Below, one piece after another: positions 59,461-61,310 of a stretch of 64,000 bases of DNA. Numbering within the stretch: position 1 is the first letter of the stretch; each line of letters starts with the position of its first letter. Source of the stretch: Pseudonocardiales bacterium. GTDB taxonomy: Bacteria > Actinomycetota > Actinomycetes > Mycobacteriales > Pseudonocardiaceae. The stretch spans positions 1 to 64,000 of the forward strand of contig JAFAPC010000191.1 of NCBI GenBank assembly GCA_019247305.1, written 5' to 3'. The notes under the pieces were generated by a model. It searched no databases. It saw only the letters and a program-made list of their open reading frames with translations, and was not told where the DNA came from. The translations under genes were made by a program, and so were the position numbers.

Positions 59461-61310
59461 ATGAATGAGAAGGTGCATGACGTAGCGATCATCGGTGGTG
59501 GAATTGGTGGCTCGATCATGGCCGCGATCCTCGCGGGTAATGGTGTCGATGTACTATTGGCCGAGGGAACTCCACATCCTCGGTTCACGATTGGCGAATC
59601 GACTACTCCAGAAACATCCATTAGTCTACGACTTCTGGCAGCCCGTTACGGCGTGCCCGAACTAGCATACCTGGAGGCTTATGCAAAACTCGGAGACGAG
59701 CTCTGTGATCATGTCGCTGACCTGCGGGGACGCCAATTTTTGATCATGTTCTCAAGGGGTTTTGCATAAGCCTCCTGAGCTCTTATTCCAGTGTTCAAAA
59801 GATAGCGCCGACCTCGGGTATCAAACGAAACTTCGGTTACGTCGGTCATCGTGTTGGGGAGAAGACTCGACCACAGGAATGCGCGCAGCTGTTCACCGTT
59901 CCCCAGCCACTGGGTCCGGATATGCACTACTTCCGGCAGGATATCGACGCTTACCTCTTCCAGGTAGCGATCAAATACGGCGCCACAGCAAAAAATGGCG
60001 TTTTGATTGAGGATGTTGAATTTTGCGACGATCTTATGCGACTGCGCGCCGCAGATGGGTCTACCTTCCTTGCTCGATACGTCGTCGATGCCGGTGGACG
60101 CAACGCCCTGATCCCCGAAAAACTCAGGTTGCGCGACACCGAACCAAGATTTCAAACCAAGACACGTACTATATTCGCGCATATGTTAGGCGTGCTTCCA
60201 TGGGATGAGTTGGGACCGAGGAAGGAAGAACATGAAATGCCTTCGCCATTTAGCCAAGGAACCCTACACCACTTTTTTAGAGGCGGCTGGATATGGGTGA
60301 TCCCGTTTAATAACCACCCACAGTCAGTGAACCCATTATGCAGCGTCGGCATCAACCTAGATATCAACTTGTATCCGATTCGTCCAGGAATATCCGCCGA
60401 GCACGAGTTCTGGGAGATTATCGAAAGTTACCCGTCCATTGCAGCCCACCTGCGGCGGGCGCGCGCGATCCGGCCCTTTGTGTCCACTGGGAGGACGCAA
60501 TTCTCGAACAAACAGATCGTAGGGACCAGATTCTGTCTTCTGCCGCATGCCGCAGAGTTCGTCGACCCACTATACTCAACCGGCATGGCAATTACGGTGA
60601 ACTGTATCAACACTCTCGCATGCCGACTGATCGAGGCTGCGCACTCCGGAGACTACGACACAGAGCGGTTCAGGTACATCGAAGAATGGACCAAGAAATC
60701 ATTCGACGTCGCGGACGATGTCATCTGGTGCACATACGAAAGTTTTTCCGATTTTCGACTATTCAACGCCGCATTCAGAATGTATATAATACAGTCATTC
60801 TACAGCACGGTCAGTCCAGCGGAGACATGGGCTCGTTACCTACACACCGGCAGCAAAGAAGTCTTTTTAAGAATGGAAGAACATCCTCGAAGAGGTACCC
60901 AGTGTGCCGATTTTCCAGAAATTCGAGAAATGGTGACAAATATAGCAAAGGAGCTTTCCTCATATAAGTCTGGAGATCAGGACTGCATGAATGCAACGAA
61001 CGCGATCTACCGGCACATAGCAGCACACAGTGACTTATTTCCGCCATTCTGGAAAATGCTCGATCCAGATTCCAGAATTCCCATGGGACGGCTGACTTTT
61101 CCACAATTTTTCCGCATCCTTATCTGGTTTAACTTTCAAGCTCAGCGCCATGTCAGAAAACAGCACTTGACTATGCAAATTGTACCACTCATCATTAAGG
61201 AGGCAGGCCAGTCTTGGGGGCGTCAAGTACAACAGGCCAGCAACGCTATTTGGCCCCATCTGCGGGACTACGTAGCAACCTGGAACCGCGATTGGAAACG
61301 TAGCATGTAA
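59461..61310 (+). pseudogene. second flavin-dependent halogenase copy, frameshifted by a 104-bp insertion
   Basis: N-terminal fragment 59461..59769 and in-frame remainder 59922..61310; without 104 bp the length is 1746 nt, identical to copy 1. Confidence 0.92.
59674..59774. mobile_element. 101-bp MITE-like non-autonomous element
   Basis: Perfect 16-bp TIRs GAGGCTTATGCAAAAC / GTTTTGCATAAGCCTC; flanking CTG direct repeats at 59671-59673 and 59775-59777. Confidence 0.9.

Follow-up and report, generated by a model that had tools for sequence, protein, structure and literature searches.

Contig JAFAPC010000191.1 of a Pseudonocardiales bacterium carries two halogenase genes in tandem, the second of which is interrupted by a 101-bp non-coding element lying between two copies of the triplet CTG. 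From an analysis of the first 64,000 nucleotides of this contig (the window) and of the host genome, we conclude that a transposase of the IS5 type, acting in trans, very probably put this miniature inverted-repeat transposable element (MITE) into the second gene (copy 2), giving a recent null allele. Inactivation of natural-product genes by MITEs is already known, and the novelty here lies in the element family and in the copy-2 instance. The insertion into copy 2 is real, well resolved and ordinary in kind, and it accounts for the loss of one tandem halogenase.

The interrupted halogenase gene

Both genes are predicted to encode flavin-dependent halogenases of the CtcP/PltM type. The intact gene (copy 1) matches Pfam Trp_halogenase (6.6e-15) and, in phmmer searches, the tetracycline 7-halogenase CtcP (2.8e-117, across residues 3-504) and PltM (1e-85). 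Its product contains the FAD-binding motif GxGxxG as GGGIGG, the motif WxWxIP as GGWIWIIP, and a lysine at position 87 that aligns with the catalytic Lys98 of CtcP and Lys87 of PltM, the K87A variant of PltM being inactive (PMC12400496, PMC6424973). Copy 2 encodes GGGIGG, Lys87 and GGWIWIIP as well, but the insert splits them. The features of the locus are as follows.

57623..59368, + strand: halogenase copy 1, intact, 581 aa, 1746 nt; paralogous empty site (Pfam, phmmer)
59461..61310, + strand: halogenase copy 2, interrupted; 1850 nt, or 1746 nt minus the element and one CTG
59461..59769, + strand: truncated N-terminal frame of 102 aa, made up of halogenase residues 1-70, Leu71 and a MITE-encoded remainder; GxGxxG kept, without Lys87
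59671..59673, + strand: target-site duplication CTG, left, codon 71
59674..59774, no strand: 101-bp MITE with 22 further genome matches (terminal inverted repeats, genome search)
59674..59689, + strand: left terminal inverted repeat (TIR), GAGGCTTATGCAAAAC, perfect 16-bp inverted repeat
59759..59774, - strand: right TIR, the left TIR in reverse complement; contains the stop (TAA, 59767-59769) of the truncated frame
59775..59777, + strand: target-site duplication CTG, right
59922..61310, + strand: downstream open frame, 462 aa, from the first ATG/GTG/TTG (codon 120); without GxGxxG and Lys87

A preliminary description of this DNA had already given the coordinates and lengths of both genes, the position of the element beside a duplicated CTG target at offset 210 of the frame (codon 71), its perfect 16-bp inverted repeats, its lack of coding capacity and the resulting frameshift, and all of these stand. 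Scripted removal of the element and one CTG restores 1746 nt, again as described, with 581 open codons and a single terminal stop, and the restored copy 2 is colinear with copy 1 along its full length. The TIRs are 100% paired over 16 bp (17 bp if the adjoining G/C is included), and the window has no other perfect inverted repeat that reaches 16 bp with its arms no more than 200 bp apart. The TIR sequence with up to three mismatches matches twice in the window, against 0.12 matches expected by chance. Each of the six frames of the element contains a stop codon, and there is no transposase gene.

Codon 71 lies within the FAD-binding domain. The insert of 104 nt (the element plus one CTG) shifts the frame, which ends at the TAA inside the right TIR, and no ATG, GTG or TTG occurs in frame between this point and the ATG at 59922. 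Inactivation of copy 2 is supported because the FAD motif and the catalytic lysine do not occur together in either fragment; we infer that no functional protein is made from copy 2, which is almost certainly a null allele, barring the use of a rare start codon combined with fragment complementation.

Copies of the element and insertion sequences with the same ends

The host genome, a 5.2-Mb draft of 206 contigs (87.7% complete, 6.9% contaminated), contains 23 matches to the element, that is, the copy-2 insertion and 22 others, 12 of them identical to it. Ten of the 23 are complete at 100% identity, three are identical and cut by contig ends, and the rest are 75-96% identical or short pieces. 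Copies on contigs C4, C56 and C191 have a common left flank, and some contig-end copies may be one locus counted twice. Where both flanks are readable, 13 of 15 copies are flanked by perfect 3-bp duplications whose sequence varies from copy to copy, the chance of matching flanks being 1/64 per copy. The preliminary description had proposed a MITE-like insertion and staked this on the presence of further copies in the genome; the copies and their duplications bear it out. Being short and non-coding, with TIRs, a constant 3-bp target-site duplication, dispersed copies and insertion sequences (IS) bearing the same TIR, the element is assigned to the MITEs.

A search of the host genome that allowed up to two mismatches placed the TIR at 74 positions, as compared with none for a reversed control, and many of these positions are the ends of IS at which contigs stop after 130 to 145 bases. 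At many of its contig ends, the draft assembly is broken by the MITE or by IS copies with the same ends. A complete IS with TIR ends (C142:145-1081, L067; 937 bp) encodes the Pfam domains HTH_Tnp_4 (9.7e-7) and DDE_Tnp_4 (1.1e-19), and NCBIfam IS5 models match it weakly, below their cut-offs. In the most numerous IS type, the right-end triplet matches a left-end triplet in six of seven cases (P about 1.5e-4), as 3-bp duplications would yield. The IS with the same TIR, which measure about 0.94 kb and have 3-bp duplications, are classed in the IS5 family by their HTH_Tnp_4/DDE_Tnp_4 transposase, and the parent transposase with matching TIRs envisaged in the preliminary description has candidates in the host genome itself.

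An IS5-type insertion sequence is therefore the likely source of the transposase for the MITE. Such a transposase, encoded elsewhere in the genome, would act in trans on the non-autonomous element by way of the same 16-bp ends; the element would insert at codon 71 of the second tandem halogenase with duplication of CTG, the shifted frame would run into the stop supplied by the right TIR, and copy 2, reduced to a stub of 102 residues without the catalytic lysine, would become a null allele. Since the MITE and the IS have only 16-18 end bases in common, the element would be a TIR-only MITE moved in trans and not a visible deletion derivative. Origin by internal deletion from a present IS was considered and rejected because the common sequence is confined to these end bases.

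Several observations weigh against this account. Beyond the 16-18 end bases, no similarity could be detected between the interior of the MITE and the IS ends, and as a consequence the parent IS is proposed from TIR and target-site duplication only. The best complete IS copy, on C142, has no matching target duplication, and its transposase is split between overlapping frames at 289-699 and 624-1076, possibly because of programmed frameshifting or because the copy is dead; no IS with these ends was seen to encode its transposase in one intact frame in the draft genome, which is fragmented, incomplete and partly contaminated, as stated above. Two of the 15 two-sided MITE copies have no matching duplication. 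Finally, no sister strain offers an empty site, the halogenase being confined to the host among the genomes of the genus.

Six of 11 genomes of the genus, counting that of the host, have the element (identity in the relatives 72-93%), and all 381 genomes from elsewhere in the family lack it. The element has no match in plasmids, and a literature search for the TIR string or for MITEs in Pseudonocardia returned nothing relevant. The element family is new and, among the genomes searched, known within one genus only; its exact boundaries are now available.

Related elements accompany it. A 101-bp MITE family with an altered TIR (GAGGCTTATTCAAAA) is found at L053 1157-1257 (C7) and L093 1501-1601, and also in a relative. 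Also present in the host genome and in a relative is a family with TIR GAGGCTTATTCA, related to the element; a 90-bp MITE with TIR GAGGCTTATTCA..TGAATAAGCCTC is nested in an IS copy with ATT on either side (L076, C92, approximately 146-235). In the relative G005 (L089, L092, L096), both TIR arms bear the same change (GCAGAAC/GTTCTGC), which suggests that the ends track a transposase of slightly different specificity.

Timing of the loss and competing explanations

The preliminary description had taken the inactivation to be recent, citing a close match between the two genes. This reason does not hold, as the copies are 84.4% identical in nucleotides (15.6% differing) and 83.0% in amino acids, and with a synonymous divergence (dS) of about 0.56 the duplication is old, the pair having diverged under purifying selection (ratio of non-synonymous to synonymous divergence, dN/dS, 0.16). 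The conclusion survives on other grounds: given that copy 2 is free of further frameshifts and stops, that dN/dS is 0.16, and that 13 copies of the element are identical, the sequence points to a recent loss of copy 2. The same evidence bears on the possibility that the insertion is old, or that copy 2 was already decaying when the MITE hit. The edge of the cluster does show decay, in that a neighbouring SDR-like frame (62139-62717) has lost its start codon and central part, but, besides the intact remainder of copy 2 and an element identical to 12 others, the amino-acid changes are evenly spread between the copies (compared with seven family homologues, 27 sites favour copy 1 and 29 favour copy 2), and we regard either possibility as improbable.

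It might also be argued that the 104 bp are a conserved part of a functional gene, such as a cassette for programmed frameshifting or a hairpin with a regulatory role. The element is indeed predicted to form a strong hairpin (-51.8 kcal/mol, z -6.8), and family members keep stem pairs, some through double changes; such a hairpin is, however, expected of inverted repeats anyway, the same element, with target duplications, is inserted at some 20 unrelated sites, and neither copy 1 nor the family homologues examined, which run through the insertion site, have the 104 bp. Nor could an enzyme be expected from a gene with a 104-nt shift, stops in six frames and no standard start before codon 120, which makes this explanation exceedingly improbable. 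A conserved RNA was likewise rejected, as the TIRs by themselves account for the hairpin and double changes affect only three of 29 pairs, one of them inside the TIR, where the arms would co-vary as transposase binding ends; a search of Rfam gave no match. That the gene was split into two pieces that still cooperate is hardly credible. While the fragments, of 102 and 462 aa, are each open, the break lies within the FAD-binding domain, and Lys87 falls between the two pieces, past the end of the first and ahead of the start of the second; it would be covered only if translation began at a rare start codon, for instance the CTG at 59775. An assembly artefact, in which a repeat was wrongly joined into the gene, would fit a draft that breaks at many copies of the element, but the halves of copy 2 pick up precisely at the duplicated CTG, without the loss of any base relative to copy 1, and a false join would not give the duplication signature that this site shares with other copies; we attach next to no weight to it. 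We also consider it very improbable that the loss of copy 2 was selected, through altered halogenation of an undescribed isoprenoid-linked product, with the MITE serving as a reversible switch by precise excision.

Known systems and neighbouring genes

Prokaryotic MITEs such as Correia and MITEAba12 (reviewed in PMC10969869) resemble the element in being short and non-coding, with TIRs in common with autonomous IS, a target duplication of fixed size and many copies; the 101-bp family differs in having been found within one genus only. With the IS5-family insertion sequences carrying DDE_Tnp_4, it shares the TIR and 3-bp duplications of the host IS copies, whereas the MITE is 101 bp long, non-coding and unrelated in its interior. 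Rathayibacter iranicus and R. tanaceti carry MITEs of 88-90 bp (L101-L106) that share the outer 14 bp of the TIR and show a 3-bp duplication in four of six cases, but these are otherwise unrelated, being shorter, with an unlike interior, and belonging to another actinobacterial family. According to the same review, microcystin (mcy) clusters of Anabaena have been inactivated by a MITE (Fewer et al. 2011, cited in PMC10969869). Both cases concern a natural-product gene cluster inactivated by a MITE in natural strains, while here a redundant tandem halogenase was struck and an intact paralogue left.

Similar to CtcP and PltM, the halogenase pair has a flavin reductase gene nearby (61566..62138, + strand; Pfam Flavin_Reduct 8.4e-33), the probable halogenase partner, and we infer that copy 1 together with this reductase would still perform halogenation. 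The setting differs in its isoprenoid gene neighbours and in the presence of two tandem copies, one of them broken: the pair lies downstream of genes for polyprenyl synthase, IspH and IspG, and the flavin reductase gene follows. For cluster-based prediction, the broken copy is a warning that the product may bear fewer halogen marks than the gene count implies. Within the family the halogenase is scattered, and none of the other 10 genomes of the genus has it, a pattern that makes horizontal acquisition probable. GTDB genome contigs, when scanned, yielded no halogenase relatives, and the closest annotated relative in the plasmid collection is a Streptomyces plasmid halogenase beside a flavin reductase (53% identity).

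The SDR-like frame directly follows the flavin reductase gene and looks like a second pseudogene at the edge of the cluster, with no ATG, GTG or TTG before 62232 and the central part of the SDR profile absent. On the upstream side, the polyprenyl synthase gene (50969-52015) exceeds the NCBIfam cut-off for the family 2 encapsulin cargo polyprenyl transferase (495 vs 450 bits), and the frame at 55280-55483, between the isoprenoid genes and an oxidoreductase gene, encodes a small acidic protein (67 residues) for which no family match is convincing.
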